A program made the position numbers and the translations under genes. The notes under the pieces were generated by a model. The model saw only the letters and a list, made by a program, of their open reading frames with translations, did no database searches and was not told the origin of the DNA. From Anaerolineae bacterium (GTDB lineage Bacteria > Chloroflexota > Anaerolineae > JAADDB01), in contig WFWT01000146.1 of NCBI GenBank assembly GCA_015490995.1, positions 1-60,746 of the forward strand: DNA of 60,746 nt, read 5' to 3'. Below are positions 31,380 to 42,335 of the stretch, piece after piece (the stretch's first letter is position 1; every line of letters begins with the position of its first letter).

Positions 31380-32873
31380 TTAGCCGATTTCACCCTCCAG
31401 GGGCCAGTGCTCCAGGGCGTCCTTCACCGCTCGACAGAACAGGTCTGCAGTCGCACCGTCCAGCACCCGGTGATCATAACTCAACGCCAGGGTGACCATG
31501 GGGACAAACACCAACGCATCACCCGACGGCGATGTTCCCGTGTCCTCACGGGAAAGGACCACCGGTCGCTTCTCTACTGCGCCCACGCCCAAAATGGCCG
31601 CTTGGGGATGCACAATAATGGGCGTTTGTAAACGGCTGCCCCCAACCCCATAGTTGGTGAGCGTAATCGTGCCCCCCTTCAGGTCCTCGGGCGTCAACCG
31701 CTGTTCACGCGCGCGGGTGACCAGGTCCTGAATGCGTCGGGCGATGCCCTCCAAGGTTAACTCGTGAGCGTCCCGGATTACCGGCACCACCAGCCCACCC
31801 AAACCGTGTTCGTCGGGCGGAATGGCCACCGCCAGTCCCACGTGGACTCGACGTGAGATGAGAATACCCTCTTCGGTCCAGGAGCCGTTGGCGGCGGGCA
31901 CGGCCCGCACACCGGCCACCAGCGCCTTGACAAAGTACGCAGTGAGGGTTAGACGCACCCCCCGTCGGGCAAAAGCGTCCTTATGCCTGCGGTAATGGCC
32001 CAACACCGCGCTCATGTCGACATCCCACACGGTGGTGACATGGGGTGCGGTGAACGCGCTGCGCGCGGTGTTCTCCGCGATCAGGCGCCGCATTCGGGTA
32101 TGCGGTACCAGGATGGTGTCCTCTTCCACACGGGAAGCTTCCACCGTCTCGGGGGCGGGCGATGAGGGCGGCTCCGACTCCTGAACAGCGGGCGGACGCA
32201 ACGGATAACGTGGTTCGGTGGGCAAGAACGTGAGACCTTTCTGCTGCGCGACGTACGCCAGTACGTCAAACCGGGTGAGCTGGCTTAAAGGACGCCCCTG
32301 GGCCACTTCCCGAAGGTTCACGTTGAAGTCAGCGGCCAATCGCCGAACGCTTAGGGAAGCGACGTCCGCGAACTCCTCCGGCAGCGCGGTGGTGTGCTCA
32401 GGGGATGACGTCCCGTCCGTGGACGAAGCCTCCTGCGCTGCGAGGTATCGCGCCACGTCGGCCTTGGTCACCTGGCCACCAGGACCGCTGCCAGGCACAG
32501 CAGCCAGATCGATGCCGGCCTCCTCAGCCATGCGCCGGGCCACCGGTGTCGCCCGCACCCGTTCCCGTCGGGGCGCCGCCGACGTCACCACCGGGGCACT
32601 CTCGTCAGCAGGCGGCACATCCTCCACCTCATCCTCAGGATGTCCTATCCACCCGATCACCTCTCCCGCCTTGACCACCTCCCCATCCCCGCGCAAGATC
32701 TTCAACACCGTCCCCGCGGCGGGCGCGGTCACCTCGGTGTCCACCTTGCCGGTAGCCAGCTCGAGGATCACGTCCCCTTCGGCGACGGTATCCCCTTCCT
32801 TCACCTGCCACCGAATAATCGTGGCTTCTTCCACCTCTTTGCCCAGGTCGGGCACACGTATTTCGATCGCCAT
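31380..32873 (-). CDS. Dihydrolipoamide acyltransferase E2 of a 2-oxoacid dehydrogenase
   Basis: A 497-residue E2 subunit. Lipoyl domain residues 1-78 with the lipoyl Lys K43 in TGKVDTEV; first peripheral subunit-binding domain at about 104-146 (ATPVARRMAEEAGIDLAAV, GPGGQVTKADVARYL). A second, weaker subunit-binding-like unit follows at about 170-215 (SVRRLAADFNVNLREV, LTRFDVLAYVAQQ). The catalytic domain ends with SYDHRVLDGATADLF, with active-site H468 and D472 (HXXXDG). The usual E3 is not in the window. It is co-transcribed behind E1alpha and E1beta with a 22-base gap. The acyl substrate could be pyruvate or branched-chain 2-oxoacids. Confidence 0.94.
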   Translation of the reverse strand: MAIEIRVPDLGKEVEEATIIRWQVKEGDTVAEGDVILELATGKVDTEVTAPAAGTVLKILRGDGEVVKAGEVIGWIGHPEDEVEDVPPADESAPVVTSAAPRRERVRATPVARRMAEEAGIDLAAVPGSGPGGQVTKADVARYLAAQEASSTDGTSSPEHTTALPEEFADVASLSVRRLAADFNVNLREVAQGRPLSQLTRFDVLAYVAQQKGLTFLPTEPRYPLRPPAVQESEPPSSPAPETVEASRVEEDTILVPHTRMRRLIAENTARSAFTAPHVTTVWDVDMSAVLGHYRRHKDAFARRGVRLTLTAYFVKALVAGVRAVPAANGSWTEEGILISRRVHVGLAVAIPPDEHGLGGLVVPVIRDAHELTLEGIARRIQDLVTRAREQRLTPEDLKGGTITLTNYGVGGSRLQTPIIVHPQAAILGVGAVEKRPVVLSREDTGTSPSGDALVFVPMVTLALSYDHRVLDGATADLFCRAVKDALEHWPLEGEIG

Positions 32874-32895
32874 GGACGTCTTTCCTCCTTAAAAT

Positions 32896-33906
32896 TTACG
32901 CGTAGGCCACGCGCTCATGCATCATCTCCAGCACGGTGGCCATAATGTGCCGTTTCCAGGGCAAGATTTCCTGTTCCAGGGGCCGGGATACGGGAATGGG
33001 CACCGGCGGCATGCCAAGACGACGAGCTGGCGCCTTCAACAAGTGGGGTACTTCCTCATACGCCCGAGCGACGATCTCGGCCCCCACACCACAGTTGGCG
33101 TAGGACTCGTGTACGGCCAACAAACGACCGGTACGGGCCACTGAGGCCCAGATGGTCTCGGTGTCCATGGGGTTTACCGTCCGCAAGTCCACCACCTCCA
33201 CGTCAATACCGTATTTTTCGGCCAGCTCTTCAGCAGCGGCCAGGGCCTCCAGCAAGCAGTAACTGTAGGTGACCAGGGTGAGATCCCGTCCCGGCCGCTT
33301 CACCTCGGCCAGCCCAATGGGAACGGTATAATCCACATCGGGAGGTGGCACCTCCCCGGTGGTGAAGTACAACATCTTGTGCTCCAAAAACACCACCGGG
33401 TTGTCATCCCGAATGGCAGCCTTCAAGAGCCCCTTGGCATCATAAGGCGTAGCCGGGGCTACCACTCGCAATCCCGGGAAGTGAGCGTACAGGCTGTCTA
33501 AGGATTGGCTATGTTGGGAACCGTAGTTTTTGCCCCCTCCCTGTTGCCCACGAATCACCAGAGGCAAGTACACCCGTCCACCGGTCATGTAGGCATATTT
33601 CCCTATCTGGTTGAAGATCTGGTCAGCGGCCACCAGGGTAAAGTCCATGTACATGATCTCGACCACCGGACGCATACCCACCGCTGCGGCGCCCAAGGCC
33701 ATGCCGATGAATGCCTGCTCGCTAATGGGGGTATCCATCACCCGTTGGGGACCGAACTCCTCCAGTAAATTACGGGTTACGCGAAAGAGTCCCCCGTAAT
33801 ACGCCACGTCCTCCCCCATGATAAACACCCGCTCATCCCGTCGCATCTCCTCGCGCAGCGCCTCGTTCAGCGCTTGCAAGTACGTCGTCTTTCGCATCTG
33901 GACCAT
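32896..33906 (-). CDS. 2-oxoacid dehydrogenase E1 component, beta subunit
   Basis: A 336-residue transketolase-like beta chain of the pyruvate/branched-chain 2-oxoacid dehydrogenase E1. Marks: [44 protein letters not shown] and the C-terminal domain with [23 protein letters not shown] precedes the ATG at 33906; the next ATG (MRKTTY) three codons on is also possible. It pairs with the alpha subunit encoded upstream to form a thiamine-diphosphate enzyme. Confidence 0.95.
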
Positions 33907-33987
33907 ACCACCTCCTTACTTTGCCTGACCGATGTACAACTGGCTATCCCACGTCACGCCCAAACACCCTATGTCTCCTCCCCGGCG

Positions 33988-35055
33988 TCACAGGTGAAAC
34001 ACATCCGTGTACGCCTCCGCTATGTCCGGCCAGGGGCTTGTCTCCGCGAATTCCACTGCCCGGGCCAGGTCCTGTGCCACTGCCTCTTCAATGCGCGCCA
34101 GAGCTTCTTCGGTCACATTCCGATCCAGAAGCTTTTGACGCAGTACCAGGAGAGGATCGGCCTGGCGCTGGTGTTCCCGCTCCTCCGGGGTTCGATACGT
34201 TTCCAGGTCGCCTGCCATGTGACCGGCCAGACGATACGTAATGGCCTCAATGAAGGTCGGGCCTTCCCCGGACCGAGCACGTTCCGCGGCCCAGCTGACC
34301 GCAGCGTGCACGATCTCCACGTCGTTGCCGTTGATACGAATGGACTCTATGCCGTACACCTTGGGGAACGTGTACAAGTCCTCGATGGCCGACGTACGCC
34401 ATATGGGGGTCATTTCGGAATACTTGTTGTTCTCCATGTAGAAAATTACGGGCAGCTTCCACTTAGCGGCGATGTTAAAGGTCTCGTGCATCACCCCCTG
34501 ATAGATGGCACCGTCGCCAAAAAAGGTGAGTGCGATGCGGTCCTCACCGCGCATGCGCGCGGCCAACGCCATCCCGGCCGCGTGGGGTACTTGAGCTGCG
34601 ACCACTCCGTTGGTGCCCATAAGACCGTGCTCCGGGTCCACCATGTGCATGGAGCCCCCTTTCCCCCGAGCACATCCGCTCGCTTTGCCCAGCACCTCCG
34701 CGATCACCTGACCCGGATCCAATCCCCGGGCAATAGCATGGTGATGTCCCCGGTACGTGCAGGTCACGTAATCGTCCGGACGGGTGGCAAAGGCTGCCCC
34801 CACCGCGTTGGCTTCCATGCCGATGGCGGTGTGCATAGCCCCCCCAATGCGCCCTTCCGAGGCCGCGTCCAACAGGTACTCTTCGACCCGCCGGATCAAC
34901 AACATTACGTGATACATCTTCTGCAACACCTCTACCGACAGGGGCGGTACGTCAAACGGCGGCGGCACCTCCACCGGCAGAAGGTCGGGGGCCAGGGAGA
35001 TCGACCACCCTCTCTTGCGCTCCTGAGACGATGTTATTGTTTTAACCACGCTCAT
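33988..35055 (-). CDS. 2-oxoacid dehydrogenase E1 component, alpha subunit
   Basis: A 355-residue alpha chain that binds thiamine diphosphate. The TPP motif is visible as [10 protein letters not shown] with ENNKYSEM (GDG...NN). Other marks: [22 protein letters not shown] and [23 protein letters not shown] at 35055 with GAGGTGG upstream is preferred over a GTG four codons earlier, which lies inside that ribosome binding site. It is first in the E1alpha-E1beta-E2 operon. A promoter at 35222 gives a leader of about 160 bases with two hairpins, a possible regulatory site. Confidence 0.95.
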
Positions 35056-35103
35056 GATCCACCTCACTTTGCTCCTGGATTCACACCACTAACCCGACAT
35101 AGG

Positions 35104-35458: not shown

Positions 35459-36148
35459 ATGACAGGAAGGGCATTCCCTACCTGGCCAACCATGGAAGAG
35501 GATGAACGATACCGCCTGGCAGATCGCTTGCGGCAAGGACCTGGCCAAGCCCTGGCCAACGTCCTCGTAGATCTGCGCGTGCTGCTCTCCATGTCCCTCG
35601 ACAACGAGGAGGCGATACGGGAGGCCCTGCGCACCATCATCGCCGAGGTAGAAGCGGGATACTGGGAGCTCCAGGAGATTGTGGAGGAGGTGTGTCCCCC
35701 CTTTATCTTTCGCGAGTTGGGGTTAACCTCCTGGATGCACAGCTTTGCCGAACGGTACAAGGATCGCTACCACCTGCCGGTAGAAGTGCAGGTGTCGGCG
35801 GAGGAGATCGCACTGCCTCGCGAGGTAGCGGATGCGTTCTGGCGAGTAGTGGTGGAAGCTCTCCGCAACGTGCGCGAGCATGCCAAAGCCACCCGGGCCG
35901 TCCTTCGGCTGTCCCAGGAAGGGGACAACATTGTGCTGGAGGTGGAAGACAACGGCCAAGGCCTGTCTGAAGAAGTACTGCAGCGCACATATCAAGGCGT
36001 TCACCCCAAAATGACCTTTGGCCTTTTAATGATGCAGCGCTGGCTGGAAAAGGTAGGAGGGCGCCTGGAAGTGGGGCGCGGCCACGCCGGAGGTACTCTG
36101 GTCCGGGCCATTGTGCCGCAAGCAGGACGGGAAGGAGGTGATCCATGA
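35459..36148 (+). CDS. NarL-type sensor kinase-like protein lacking the phosphoacceptor His
   Basis: A 229-residue soluble protein shaped like a minimal HisKA_3/HATPase_c kinase. The dimerisation helix reads ADRLRQGPGQALAN; in active relatives it reads A-R-E-L-H-D-G-P-G-Q, so the phosphoacceptor His is replaced by Arg (R25) and the next Asp by Gln. The ATP-binding domain is well kept: N-box VVVEALRNVREHAKA, G1 VEDNGQGLSEE, G2 MTFGLLMMQRW with GGRLEVG and GGTLVRAIVP. No membrane segment or input domain is seen. It may be a pseudokinase, an ATP-dependent modulator or a phosphatase of the partner regulator. The ribosome binding site is weak. The stop overlaps the regulator start (ATGA). Confidence 0.87.
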   Translation: MTGRAFPTWPTMEEDERYRLADRLRQGPGQALANVLVDLRVLLSMSLDNEEAIREALRTIIAEVEAGYWELQEIVEEVCPPFIFRELGLTSWMHSFAERYKDRYHLPVEVQVSAEEIALPREVADAFWRVVVEALRNVREHAKATRAVLRLSQEGDNIVLEVEDNGQGLSEEVLQRTYQGVHPKMTFGLLMMQRWLEKVGGRLEVGRGHAGGTLVRAIVPQAGREGGDP

Positions 36149-36873
36149 GCCAGGGTGACGGCCTTATTCGGGTGATGATTGTAGAGGATCATCCCCTTTT
36201 CAGCACCGGACTGAAACGGGTGCTGGAAATGGAAGACGACATCGAAGTGGTTGCCGAGGCACGTACGGGAAAGGAAGCAGTGGAAAAAGCCGTAACAGTA
36301 CACCCTGACGTGATCATCATGGACGTGAACCTGCCCGAGATGAACGGGCTGCAAGCCACTCGCGAGATCACCAGCCGGTTGGACAACGTAGGGGTGATTG
36401 TCATCACCGCCTACCACGATGATGAACAGCTCTTTCACGCTCTGCGGGCCGGTGCGATGGCGTATTACTCTAAAGACGTCCAACCCAGCGAGCTTATCCC
36501 TGCTATCCGGCAGGTGGCCCGTGGGTACTACGTGGTGGGCGATGTCGTCATGAGTCGCCCCCAGGTAGCCTCCTGGCTCCTCAAGCGCTTCGAAGAGATG
36601 GCCCTTTTCCCCGACGCGGATGTGGTATTCGCGCCCCTAACACCGCGCGAGATGGAGATCCTCAAGCTTATCACTAAAGGCTACAGTAACAAGGAGATCG
36701 CCCGTGAGCTGGGGATCAGTCGCCAAACGGTGAAAAACCACATGAGCGCGATCCTGCGCAAATTAGCCGTCAACGACCGCACCCAAGCAGCGGTGCTGGC
36801 CCTTAAGCGGGGGTGGATCTCGCTGGCGGAACTGGAAGAACGTGAAGGTCAGGAGAAAAAGTCCGACACCTGA
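36145..36873 (+). CDS. NarL/FixJ-type response regulator
   Basis: A 242-residue regulator with receiver domain (VMIVEDHPLF, phosphoacceptor in DVIIMDVNLPEMNG, Lys in YYSKDV) and a C-terminal LuxR-type helix-turn-helix (LTPREMEILKLITKGYSNKEI, LGISRQTVKNHMSAILRKL). GGAGGTGATC, a near-perfect anti-Shine-Dalgarno match, precedes the ATG. The receiver Lys is in YYSKDVQPSEL, as in NarL. The linker before the HTH is a little long, with FPDADVVFAP. It is coupled to the kinase-like protein, which lacks its phosphoacceptor, so phosphate may come from another kinase or from acetyl phosphate. Confidence 0.95.
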   Translation: MSQGDGLIRVMIVEDHPLFSTGLKRVLEMEDDIEVVAEARTGKEAVEKAVTVHPDVIIMDVNLPEMNGLQATREITSRLDNVGVIVITAYHDDEQLFHALRAGAMAYYSKDVQPSELIPAIRQVARGYYVVGDVVMSRPQVASWLLKRFEEMALFPDADVVFAPLTPREMEILKLITKGYSNKEIARELGISRQTVKNHMSAILRKLAVNDRTQAAVLALKRGWISLAELEEREGQEKKSDT

Positions 36874-37008: not shown

Positions 37009-37824
37009 TTAAGCAACCGCCCGCCGCAAGGACACATCCGCCGGCCGCGCGGCCAGCCCCACAGTGAGCAGGTAAGCGAGGTACGCGCTCACCTCCAACA
37101 AACTGGGATTGCCGTTATAGCCGAACAGGGCTTTCAAGAAACTGCCCACCGTACCATTTTCGTCCAGGACGTTGTTGATGTTCCACACCTGCTCCACAAA
37201 CACGGGCAAAAGCCCCGCCTCCTGAAACTCGTGAACACCGCTGGCCACCAGACCCGCGGCTACCAGCAAGAGCAAAATCCCGGTAACGTTGAAGAACATG
37301 CGTAAGTTCAAACGCACACTGGCACCGAAGAGCAACACCCCCACCAACACAGCAAGCCCCAACCCAAGGGCTGCACCGGTCAGTGTAGTGGCTGCAGACG
37401 CCTGGAACATGGCCGCGGTGAGAAAGAGAGCGGTCTCCAGCCCTTCCCGCAGTACGGCGAAGAAGGTCACTCCAAAGAGAGCGACCACTCCCACCTGCAC
37501 TGCTTCCCGGGTCTCTTGTTCCAGCTTGCGAGCCAGCTCTCGTCCATGCGTCTTCATCCAGAAGATCATCCACGTTAACAGCGCGGCCGCGGCCAGCATG
37601 GTGGCCCCCTCAAAGATCTCCTCTGCCCGGCCTTCGAACTTCACCCCCATCACGTAGAGGGCAATCCCGGCCAGCAAGCTCAGAAATGCGGCCACCGCTG
37701 TCCCCGCCCATGCGTACCGCTTTAGATGGTGCAATTGCAAACGGGTCAGCACCCCCAGCACAATCCCGAGCACCAACGCCGCTTCCACACCTTCCCGCAA
37801 CGTGATTAACAGCGCAGCACCCAT
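37009..37824 (-). CDS. FTR1-family iron permease
   Basis: A 271-residue membrane protein with seven or so segments. Both family iron motifs are present: REGVE at 10-14 and REGLE at 126-130. FTR1/EfeU proteins import iron, usually with an oxidase or a periplasmic EfeO-like partner; none is adjacent, so this may be a stand-alone permease. A second acidic site GVHEFQEAG and a NNVLDENG stretch occur in the C-terminal third. Its promoter has a Fur-type palindrome and a second palindrome, so expression probably follows iron. Confidence 0.93.
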   Translation of the reverse strand: MGAALLITLREGVEAALVLGIVLGVLTRLQLHHLKRYAWAGTAVAAFLSLLAGIALYVMGVKFEGRAEEIFEGATMLAAAALLTWMIFWMKTHGRELARKLEQETREAVQVGVVALFGVTFFAVLREGLETALFLTAAMFQASAATTLTGAALGLGLAVLVGVLLFGASVRLNLRMFFNVTGILLLLVAAGLVASGVHEFQEAGLLPVFVEQVWNINNVLDENGTVGSFLKALFGYNGNPSLLEVSAYLAYLLTVGLAARPADVSLRRAVA

Positions 37825-38264: not shown

Positions 38265-41200
38265 ATGCCGAGCCGATGGTGGCGTCTAACAAGCATTGTG
38301 CTCATTATCAGTCTGTTGTTGCCTGTTGCCGCGCTGGCAGCGCCTTCTGATCCGTTCACGGATGATCCCTTTGCAACGGTGCAGACGGGCAACGGCAAGC
38401 GCTTCATTGTGCAGCTGGAAGGAGATCCCCTAGCGCGCTACTACCAAAAGATGGGCGCGCCGGTTTCCATGAGCCGAGCGCCTGGCCGGCTCGACGCGAT
38501 GGCCCCCGAAGCACAAAGGTACATTGACGCGTTACGCCAGAAACAGTGGGAGGTCTTTGAGGCCATCCAGCGGGTGGTGCCGGGCGCGCGCATGGCACAG
38601 TACATGGACGAACGAGGCCGCCTGCGCCCCCTGATGTATCAGGTGGTCCTGAACGCATTTGTTATCGAGCTACCCCGCGCCGATCGGGAGACGTTCATCA
38701 AGCTTTCCCGTATTCCCGGCATCAAGGCCATTACCCTTGAACGTCAGTTGACGTTAAACATGGAGGTGGTTAATCCCCTTGTCGGCGCCCCTGCGGTCTG
38801 GGACCGCGTGGGAGGCGTGGACGCTGCTGGTGAAGGGGTGAAGGTAGCAGTCATCGATACGGGCATCGACCCCGAACATCCGGGCTTGGATCCCACCAAC
38901 TACCGGTATCCTGTAGGATTCCCGAAGGGAGACACGCGCTTTACAACCCCCAAGGTCATTGTCATGCGGGGCTACTTCCGGCCTGATGATCCCCCTGTGG
39001 CCCCCTTCCCGCGACCGGGCCATCCCCACGGCACGGGAGTGGCTACCATCATCGGCACGAACCCGAACACTGTAGCCACGTACGAGGGCATTGATGTACC
39101 TCTCAGCGGTGTGGCCCCGAGGGTTTACCTGATGTCTTACCAGATCTTCTACCCCAGTGCCAGCGGTTCCAGCGCCCGTTACGCCTCCGAGCCTGAGGCC
39201 ATTCGGGCCATCGAGGACATGGTCATGGACGGGGCGGATGTAGTTAACAATTCGTGGGGCTCCACCGTCTTCATCCCCCTCAAGCGTGGCTTTAACCCCG
39301 TCATCGACGCGCTGGAATCCGCGTCGGCGGCCGGTGTGACGGTGGTGAAATCGGCTGGCAACTCCGGACCGGGCTCCGCTACGGTGGGAGGCAACGACCA
39401 GCCAGTGAGCGGCATCTCGGTGGGAGCCACGATTAACACGCGGGCCTTTGGCAATGAAATGAGCGTGGTAGCACCCGAACCGGTGCCCGAAGAGCTCCAG
39501 TCGATCTTAGCTGTACCCGCGGCCTTCGGTGGCTCCCTCGAGGAGGACTTGCCCCCCACGCCCATAATATGGGTAGGCCGTGTGGATGAGGACAACGCGG
39601 TTGCCTGTGACCCCATTGAGGACCCTGAGGGAGAACTGGTTGGCAAGGTGGCCCTCATCATCCGTGGCGCCTGTCGCTTCGATCGCAAGGTGACGAACGC
39701 CCAGGAAGCCGGTGCCATTGGCGCCATCATCTTTAACAACGTACCGGGGGCACCACCTATCACCATGGGCGGTGAGACAGACGGCATCACCATCTGGGCT
39801 TTCATGATCAGCAACCCGCAAGGAGCGGCATTGGCCCAGCTGGAAACGGAAAATCCGGGCCAGGTGCTCATCACCCTCGGTACCACGGTTTCGTACATCA
39901 CCGATGTCGTCGCACCCGACGTGCTGGCTACCTTCTCCAGCCGCGGTCCGGGCTATCCGCTGGACCGCATAGTGCCGGACGTGGTGGCCCCAGGCCAGAA
40001 TGTGCTCAGCGGTTATGGCCTTACCAGTGCGCCGGAAGAGGGCCTCTGGGCCCCGTGGCAGGGAACCAGTGCATCGGCACCGGTCGTGGCCGGCGCGGCC
40101 GCGTTGCTCAAGCAGGTCTACCCGGACTGGACCCCGGCCATGATCAAGAGCGCGCTCATGACCACCGCTGAACCACGCGTCTGGCTGGACTTCCAACAGA
40201 CGGTCATGGGCTCGCCCATGGATGTGGGTTCCGGTCGTATACGAATAGACCGGGCCATTAACCCCGGCGCCGTGGTGCAAGTTACCCATCCGGGCAGTGA
40301 CATACCGCCCAACGTCTCGGCCATGTTCGGCCAAGTTATGCCGGGCGAGACGAAGCGCCTTACCTTGAATTTCCAGAGCGTCATCGGCATCGACGCGACC
40401 TGGACCCTGGAGGTGAGGGATCCCTTCACCGTTGGGCTGTCCCTGAGCAGCACGACGGTCGATGTGCCGGCCATGGGCTCCGGCAGTGTCGACCTGATCC
40501 TAAACGTGCCGGAAGACATGCCACCGGGAGACTACTGGGGCCACATTGAATTCTCCCACGGCCCGCACTGGGGACACATTCCCTTCTGGGTGCGCGTCGC
40601 CGCACCGAAGGGAGAGGCGGAGGTCCTCCTGATCGATGACGACGGTTCTTTCCTCCAGCCAATTTTCTTCGGTGTGGATACCCCGGACTACCGACCTTAC
40701 TACGAAGCAATGCTTCAAAACCTGGGCGTCAGCTACGACGTCTGGGATGCGGAGCAGATGTGGCTCCAAGGATCCGGTCTGCCTGACCTCGCGACCCTCC
40801 AGCAGTACAAGGTCGTTATCTGGTTCACGGGTGATTCCTTCCTGACCTACTTCGGTGTGACGGCCAGCGCCGCGGACCGTGCCCGCCTGCTGGACTACCT
40901 GCACAACACACCGGGTAGCCGATTGCTCGTCACCGGCCAGGATTGGTCCGGCTACTTTGACAACTTCCTGAACGGCGCGGACAGCGGGTGCGTACTCTGC
41001 AGTCTGGGCGTTGGCCGGTGGCAGGAGGACGCGTACAGTCCGGCTGAACTCTTTGCATCGCCCTTCCCTGCAGCGTCGGGTGAAGGTCCCTTCCAGGACA
41101 TGATCATCGACCTGGGTGCCCCGATGACGGCCACCCTCACCTCGGGCGCGGGCAACCAGGCTTATGTGGACGGTCTGTTCCCTGATGGGCCCTTCGACCC

Positions 41201-42335
41201 GACATGGACCGGCTTTGCCGCCTTCCGAGCACTGATGCCACCTACAGAAGGGTCCGCCTCGGCCGTGCCCTTCATCGCTACCGGCCGTAGCGGTGAACCG
41301 CGACTGGAATGGCTGTTACTGGGTGACCCAGAAGGTACCACTACTTCCAGCGGCCGAGCCCTCTTCTTCGCCTTCGGTCTCGAAGGCATCAACAACGAAT
41401 ACGCGGCCGAAATGGGCTTCGCGACCCGTGAAGACGTCCTGAACCGTGCCCTCGAATGGCTCGAAGAGGAGGTGACCCTCAACGTCACCGGCACGGTAGA
41501 GGTGACATTGCCTGAACCGGTAGTGTTGACTGCTACTCTCGAGAGCAGCCTGCCCTACACGCAACCTATCACTTATCGTTGGTGGTGGGGGGACGGCACG
41601 GGTATCGTCAGCAGTGGCACCAACCCCACGGGCGTCCACCTCTACGAAGAACCCGGAACGTACACGGTGTTCGTGGAGGGAACAAGCCCGTTGGGTCACA
41701 GCGCCATTGCTAGCATCACCGTGACCGTGAACCCTGACCCGGTGACGCCGGTCACCTGGATTACGGAGACGGTGACTCTTGAGCCGGTGGCGGATACCTA
41801 CATCGATGCGTGGGCCGTGCCCTGGATGATGCCCACCGTCGGCGACGACGTGAACATCCGGGTCCGGGCCAAGGACATCCGCACCGGCCTGTTGGCCTTT
41901 GACCTGAGCACACTCCCCACGGACGCCGAAATCCTGTCCGCGAACCTCCAGCTGTATGCCACGGTCGTGCGAGGTGTCGCCAACATCGGTGCGTACAACG
42001 TGCTGCGACCGTGGTCGGAGATGAATGCCAGCTGGTGGGAGGCGGACACCGGCGTTAAGTGGGAAGTGCCAGGTGCTAACGGCCCTACGGACCGCTCCGC
42101 AATGCCCACCGATGTTCAAACTGTGTCCGGTACCGGCTGGGTATCCTTCGACGTCACTTCGGCCGCCCAAGCGTGGCTCGATGGCATGGGATATGGCATC
42201 GCCCTGCGGGGTGATGACGTGCTCACCCCCTTCGGCGGTGAAGTACACTTCATCGCCCGTGAGTTCCCCACCTTGCGGCCGAAACTTGAGATCACCTACC
42301 GGTACCCCTCTACAGGACCATCTACAGGACCATAA
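38265..42335 (+). CDS. Secreted S8 subtilisin-like serine protease, multidomain
   Basis: A 1356-residue exported protease. AAAGGAGGAG precedes the ATG; signal peptide ends near ALAAPSDP. A propeptide region with VVLNAFVIELPRAD (about 45-165) leads to the catalytic domain: D198 in AVIDTGID, H255 in HPHGTGVA, oxyanion Asn in KSAGNSGPG and S602 in GTSASAP. A PA-like insertion lies between His and Ser (about 400-540, RGACRFDRKVTNAQEAGAIGA). Downstream are an Fn3-like region, a DUF-like region around 790-1010, a PKD-type unit (YRWWWGDGTGI ... HLYEEPGTYTV, about 1090-1155) and a C-terminal DNRLRE-type domain (VADTYIDAW ... WVSFDVTSAAQAWL). No sorting anchor is evident. Likely role: extracellular protein degradation for nutrition. 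Confidence 0.94.
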   Translation: MPSRWWRLTSIVLIISLLLPVAALAAPSDPFTDDPFATVQTGNGKRFIVQLEGDPLARYYQKMGAPVSMSRAPGRLDAMAPEAQRYIDALRQKQWEVFEAIQRVVPGARMAQYMDERGRLRPLMYQVVLNAFVIELPRADRETFIKLSRIPGIKAITLERQLTLNMEVVNPLVGAPAVWDRVGGVDAAGEGVKVAVIDTGIDPEHPGLDPTNYRYPVGFPKGDTRFTTPKVIVMRGYFRPDDPPVAPFPRPGHPHGTGVATIIGTNPNTVATYEGIDVPLSGVAPRVYLMSYQIFYPSASGSSARYASEPEAIRAIEDMVMDGADVVNNSWGSTVFIPLKRGFNPVIDALESASAAGVTVVKSAGNSGPGSATVGGNDQPVSGISVGATINTRAFGNEMSVVAPEPVPEELQSILAVPAAFGGSLEEDLPPTPIIWVGRVDEDNAVACDPIEDPEGELVGKVALIIRGACRFDRKVTNAQEAGAIGAIIFNNVPGAPPITMGGETDGITIWAFMISNPQGAALAQLETENPGQVLITLGTTVSYITDVVAPDVLATFSSRGPGYPLDRIVPDVVAPGQNVLSGYGLTSAPEEGLWAPWQGTSASAPVVAGAAALLKQVYPDWTPAMIKSALMTTAEPRVWLDFQQTVMGSPMDVGSGRIRIDRAINPGAVVQVTHPGSDIPPNVSAMFGQVMPGETKRLTLNFQSVIGIDATWTLEVRDPFTVGLSLSSTTVDVPAMGSGSVDLILNVPEDMPPGDYWGHIEFSHGPHWGHIPFWVRVAAPKGEAEVLLIDDDGSFLQPIFFGVDTPDYRPYYEAMLQNLGVSYDVWDAEQMWLQGSGLPDLATLQQYKVVIWFTGDSFLTYFGVTASAADRARLLDYLHNTPGSRLLVTGQDWSGYFDNFLNGADSGCVLCSLGVGRWQEDAYSPAELFASPFPAASGEGPFQDMIIDLGAPMTATLTSGAGNQAYVDGLFPDGPFDPTWTGFAAFRALMPPTEGSASAVPFIATGRSGEPRLEWLLLGDPEGTTTSSGRALFFAFGLEGINNEYAAEMGFATREDVLNRALEWLEEEVTLNVTGTVEVTLPEPVVLTATLESSLPYTQPITYRWWWGDGTGIVSSGTNPTGVHLYEEPGTYTVFVEGTSPLGHSAIASITVTVNPDPVTPVTWITETVTLEPVADTYIDAWAVPWMMPTVGDDVNIRVRAKDIRTGLLAFDLSTLPTDAEILSANLQLYATVVRGVANIGAYNVLRPWSEMNASWWEADTGVKWEVPGANGPTDRSAMPTDVQTVSGTGWVSFDVTSAAQAWLDGMGYGIALRGDDVLTPFGGEVHFIAREFPTLRPKLEITYRYPSTGPSTGP

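Follow-up and report, generated by a model that had tools for sequence, protein, structure and literature searches.

The best solved match, in both sequence and fold, to the kinase described here is DesK of Bacillus subtilis, a HisKA_3 kinase built from a DHp hairpin and an ATP-binding domain. An engineered H188V variant of DesK is kinase-dead but still removes phosphate from P~DesR at the normal level, in vitro as well as in vivo, with Gln193 placed to position water, and the histidine is also dispensable for the phosphatase activity of NarX (PMC5231405). DxxxQ/H is the HisKA_3 phosphatase motif (PMC11502775); in the phosphatase complex of DesK, the aspartate of this motif is in contact with the regulator (PMC5231405). 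RocA of Streptococcus functions without a phosphoacceptor histidine (PMC7028121), as does DivL of Caulobacter (PMC9430884). In FasBCA of group A Streptococcus, two kinase-like proteins divide the labour around one regulator, and FasC needs its histidine but not its kinase domain (PMC12675982).

We analysed a 60,746-nucleotide stretch of DNA from an Anaerolineae bacterium (the window), in which the first gene of a two-component pair encodes a His-less protein of the DesK type. Its DHp hairpin and ATP-binding domain are those of DesK, with His188, Asp189 and Gln193 corresponding to Arg25, Gln26 and Gln30; what was engineered in H188V is, in this clade, a natural and clade-wide loss. Unlike DesK, the clade has also lost the adjacent aspartate and gained an invariant Glu63, and the window protein is without a transmembrane sensor. 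As in DegS/DegU, the regulator is of the NarL/DegU type and, in related loci, a second kinase matches Pfam DegS; unlike in DegS/DegU, there is an additional HisKA_3 protein, without the histidine, ahead of the regulator, and the window's lineage is without the DegS-like kinase. These related loci resemble FasBCA in holding two kinase-like proteins and one regulator, but FasBCA has membrane proteins and other regulators, the window holds one of the two kinases, and a heterodimer in the cassette would be hypothetical. RocA and DivL each act through another kinase (CovS and CckA, respectively), whereas the window protein forms a pair with a regulator alone.

A kinase-like protein without its phosphoacceptor histidine

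The window kinase is a cytosolic protein of 229 amino acids that lacks an N-terminal sensor part, and its ORF shares an ATGA overlap with that of the regulator, indicating translational coupling (Table 1). Pfam recognizes HATPase_c in the kinase at 50.1 bits (cut-off 26.4) and places HisKA_3 below threshold (15.3 bits, cut-off 24); the regulator matches Response_reg (receiver) and GerE (LuxR-type DNA-binding). An alignment-based AF2 model (pLDDT 86.7) contains the DHp hairpin and the ATP-binding domain, and its closest PDB matches are DesK and the VraS ATP-binding domain; the protein is predicted to combine a HisKA_3 DHp with a HATPase_c domain in a fold of the DesK type.

Table 1. Features of the kinase–regulator pair, in window coordinates.
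Feature	Position	Strand	Basis
His-less HisKA_3-type pseudo-histidine kinase	35459–36148	+	ORF, Pfam, His-less orthologues, DesK-like model and fold
DHp hairpin, helices 12–44 and 50–78	35492–35692	+	AF2 model; sub-threshold HisKA_3 match, residues 16–78
Arg25-Gln26, at the positions of the phosphoacceptor His and following Asp	35531–35536	+	Alignments
Gln30, counterpart of DesK phosphatase Gln193	35546–35548	+	Alignment; role from PMC5231405
Glu63, invariant in the His-less clade	35645–35647	+	Orthologue alignment
N box: E133, N137, H141	35855–35881	+	Orthologue alignment
G1 box DNGQG	35948–35962	+	Sequence and orthologue alignment
G2 box GLLMM	36020–36034	+	Sequence and orthologue alignment
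NarL/DegU-type response regulator, partner of the kinase (242 aa)	36145–36873	+	ORF, Pfam, regulator tree
Asp60, regulator phosphoacceptor	36322–36324	+	Regulator alignments

An earlier note on this DNA had described a two-component pair whose kinase lacks the phosphoacceptor histidine, with arginine and glutamine in place of the usual His and Asp. The ORFs, the Pfam matches and a profile alignment to DesK confirm this description, and the alignments show both substitutions in the H box, which reads ADRLRQGPGQ. Nor does a histidine elsewhere in the helix take over the aligned position, both DHp helices of the window protein being devoid of histidine. Autophosphorylation at the usual site, which the note had declared impossible, is excluded by Arg25 at the histidine position. 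The note was equally right that the N, G1 and G2 boxes are intact, as they are in the window protein and across its family, so that ATP may still be bound, and that the regulator has its full phosphorylation site (E14, D15, D60, T88 and K110 are all present). Of the DxxxQ motif, the window kinase has the catalytic glutamine (Gln30) and lacks the aspartate (Gln26).

The substitution is not confined to this sequence. The histidine, with its Asp, is kept in seven of seven aligned HisKA_3 paralogues from the same genome (three weaker hits were left unaligned). The closest hits likewise lack it: within the window's family, three further genomes have R-T, K-Q and K-Q at the His-Asp positions, and five genomes from other families have Q-E, M-S, R-E, R-E and R-A. 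The second position, Gln26 in the window, is Q or T within the family and mixed across the clade. A local mutation or assembly error was rejected, since orthologues from the three family genomes have R or K at the histidine position.

Divergent to the kinase gene lies a 2-oxoacid dehydrogenase-like set on the minus strand (31380–35067; E1 alpha, E1 beta and lipoyl E2 by sequence), for which conservation was not seen in the f1/f23 loci, which are short. Convergent with the regulator gene, the minus strand encodes an FTR1-type iron permease-like membrane protein (37009–37824), and farther along the plus strand encodes a 1356-aa secreted subtilase-like protein with a PA-like insert and a C-terminal PKD-like repeat (38265–42335), both named by sequence appearance. 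Five window neighbours were sought beside the pair in seven of these short f1/f23 loci and none was found (0/5); because none recurred, no target genes can be named.

The His-less clade and its three-gene cassette

A first scan for related loci with the kinase as query gave no matches, its 44-row alignment offered no sufficiently conserved stretch, and the named genomes were surveyed with the regulator as query. A set of 48 kinase orthologues was gathered from 396 genomes of the class by a search with a His-less profile and by inspection of neighbourhoods. The earlier note had advised looking for the same substitution in orthologues: the histidine is missing from 45 of the 48, across the class, with R, K, Q, M, L, E or S instead, and the three His-bearing members are all nested within family f39. 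Other aligned HisKA_3 kinases have it in 79 of 79 rows, or 72 distinct proteins (seven rows are duplicates), and a published survey found it lost in 56 of 16,025 HisKA_3 domains (0.3%; PMC12632262). Given 45/48 against 0/72 and against this background, the loss exceeds chance.

Positions 25–28 of the H box vary freely, unlike Gln30, where 46 orthologues have Q and two have H, and Asn34 and Glu63 are invariant in all 48. At the position of Glu63, orthologues from other classes that bear the histidine have D, V or Q, and the canonical second kinase described below has mostly A or S. The ATP boxes are kept (N137 in 45/48, D164 in 47/48, G166 in 47/48, G168 in 45/48 and G188 in 45/48; with E133, which is also kept, the range is 45–48 of 48), and the sole conserved histidine of the clade is H141 of the N box, as in other kinases. 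At E ≤ 5.5e-5, HisKA_3 is matched by 37 of 44 relatives and HATPase_c by 41 of 44. Selection on the His-less kinase is purifying: dN/dS is about 0.04–0.20 for five His-less pairs, among them one in the window's family, and the single canonical-kinase pair gave about 0.04, all rough values since synonymous distances are high. Kinase ORFs are intact in four species of the window's family, and together with dN/dS this led us to reject a pseudogene.

In one tree, where joined long branches were flagged, the window's family fell outside the His-less clade. Once the long rows had been removed, the clade including the window formed one side of a branch with support of 97 (short tree search, SH-aLRT only). 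The loss of the histidine is ancestral to the whole clade and not local, and the window protein is an inherited pseudo-histidine kinase of the HisKA_3/DesK type, which has the kinase fold, lacks the catalytic function and is maintained by selection.

In most families of the class, three genes follow one another on the same strand: the His-less kinase, the orthologous regulator and a canonical DegS-like kinase with an H-D-G-P-A-Q box. Each such locus holds two kinase-like genes and one regulator, an arrangement that most relatives have and the window does not. Several families have the regulator and the canonical kinase only. The window's family and f23 have only the His-less kinase and the regulator: sampled kinase-bearing members lack an adjacent canonical kinase, and a search of eight genomes yielded no full-length orthologue of it (completeness is 99% for the assembly of the window and lower for the others). 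The window's lineage has lost the second kinase.

The named genomes that carry the regulator are Chloroflexota MAGs labelled Anaerolineae, Caldilineae and Ardenticatenia. The regulators of the window's family and f23 form one clade (support 98) inside a class-wide group (97), and D15, D60, T88 and K110 are kept in every class regulator examined, which argues that its phosphorylation still matters. At fourteen loci, many of them from Caldilineaceae, no kinase gene was detectable adjoining it. At one locus it adjoins an extremely degenerate relative of the His-less kinase (L236:2244-2975, plus strand, LEQEIGHTLANA) with unrecognizable G boxes. A glycosyltransferase-like gene lies directly upstream of the regulator in L239, L248 and L259, and in L068 a family-2 glycosyltransferase gene precedes the His-less kinase gene; it looks as if the kinase gene had dropped out of the former three.

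Loci with these three genes in this order are also present in other classes of the phylum; their first kinase has its histidine in 16 of 16 cases and is sister to the His-less clade (94 in the tree with the long rows); the union of His-less and His-bearing first kinases has a support of 99 after long rows were dropped (short search, SH-aLRT only). The second kinase of these loci is intact in f78. In f79 and f89 its histidine is kept without a HATPase_c hit; one f93 genome has H→Q beside a retained HATPase_c, one f97 genome has H→R and gives no HATPase_c hit, and in f96 the H box is altered. The second kinases of L176, L177, L178, L179 and L181 are DegS-like, with HDGPAQ intact and no recognizable ATP-binding domain, a mirror image of the window protein. 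Different lineages have thus degraded different kinases of the same pair, in few independent events. No cassette with both kinases in this sample had lost both histidines, an observation on few independent events that carries no statistical claim. It is possible, if rather doubtful, that Chloroflexota had an ancient system of kinase, regulator and second kinase with complementary halves, either of which may lose its histidine or ATPase domain if the other keeps it, and that the window's lineage kept only the His-less half, now a stand-alone, dedicated phosphatase of the regulator.

Candidate functions of the His-less kinase

The family, its cassette and the loss of the histidine are established; for the biochemistry, the reading we prefer by inference, at about an even chance, is that the window kinase is a dedicated, nucleotide-gated phosphatase of its partner regulator, turning the switch off rather than on. 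By analogy with DesK, its DHp helix would bind the regulator, Gln30 would position the attacking water, and the ATP-binding domain would probably set the conformation of the protein. It would so drain phosphate supplied to the regulator by another source, which would be the adjacent canonical kinase in most lineages and a non-adjacent kinase or a small phosphodonor in the window's lineage. Favouring this reading are the absence of the histidine from most orthologues while position 30 is Q or H in 48 of 48, the persistence of phosphatase activity in H188V of the nearest solved relative, the retention of the ATP boxes, purifying selection, and the regulator's conserved phosphosite. Since the His-less kinase persists in the window/f23 clade where the canonical kinase is missing, it would act without that partner. 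Against it, Gln30 is conserved in active kinases too, which makes its retention unspecific; the Asp of DxxxQ is Gln in the window and varies across the clade; no donor of phosphate to the window's regulator came to light; and in many Caldilineaceae relatives the regulator is retained while no kinase gene can be detected beside it. It has also been argued that pseudo-kinases do not generally serve as phosphatases, since the histidine is lost less often in HisKA_3 than in HisKA kinases (PMC12632262).

The main rival, which we hold to be unlikely, makes the protein one half of a heterodimer, regulatory or catalytic: its ATPase domain would phosphorylate a His-bearing kinase, or its DHp would restrain one. 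The cassette found in most families would supply the adjacent DegS-like kinase as partner, the complementary degeneration in other classes (f93, f97, f79 and f89 beside 16 of 16 intact first histidines) is suggestive, and there is precedent in the FasB/FasC heterodimer, where the FasC kinase domain is dispensable (PMC12675982), and in RocA, which acts through CovS (PMC7028121, PMC7380576). Independent degeneration events are few, however, and heterodimerisation alone cannot account for the protein in the window, which lacks the second kinase; some other HisKA_3 kinase would be required there. A protein that merely binds and sequesters the regulator, as a phosphorylation-independent antagonist or scaffold, would account for the conserved DHp surface and regulator pairing and for the free variation at positions 25–28, but it would not require conservation of Gln30 and the ATP boxes, and the regulator's phosphosite is fully conserved; we consider it improbable.

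We think it very improbable that the protein is the decaying remnant of an outgoing kinase, as the Caldilineaceae with a regulator and no detectable kinase might suggest: the long branch of the window's family, the degenerate copy in L236 and the regulators without any copy point that way, but the intact ORFs, purifying dN/dS, conserved ATP boxes and translational coupling to the regulator do not. We give hardly any credence to an active kinase with another phosphoacceptor, for although the ATP boxes are intact, the clade's DHp, like the His-free window helices, has no conserved alternative, and H141 belongs to the N box.

Meaning for pseudo-histidine kinases

Pseudo-histidine kinases have so far been known singly, and HisKA_3 members without the histidine are rare. 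No description of this family was found in the open-licence literature; what is new, against the open literature searched, is a clade-wide HisKA_3 case that has orthologues with the histidine and a fixed regulator, and in which degeneration alternates between two kinases. Because part of the family scores under the HisKA_3 cut-off, surveys that apply Pfam cut-offs may undercount it. The family makes it testable whether pseudo-histidine kinases dephosphorylate or steer another kinase, since a clade under selection comes with His-bearing orthologues, a fixed regulator and lineages with and without the second kinase. The window's lineage, being without the usual partner kinase, is where this can be tested most cleanly.
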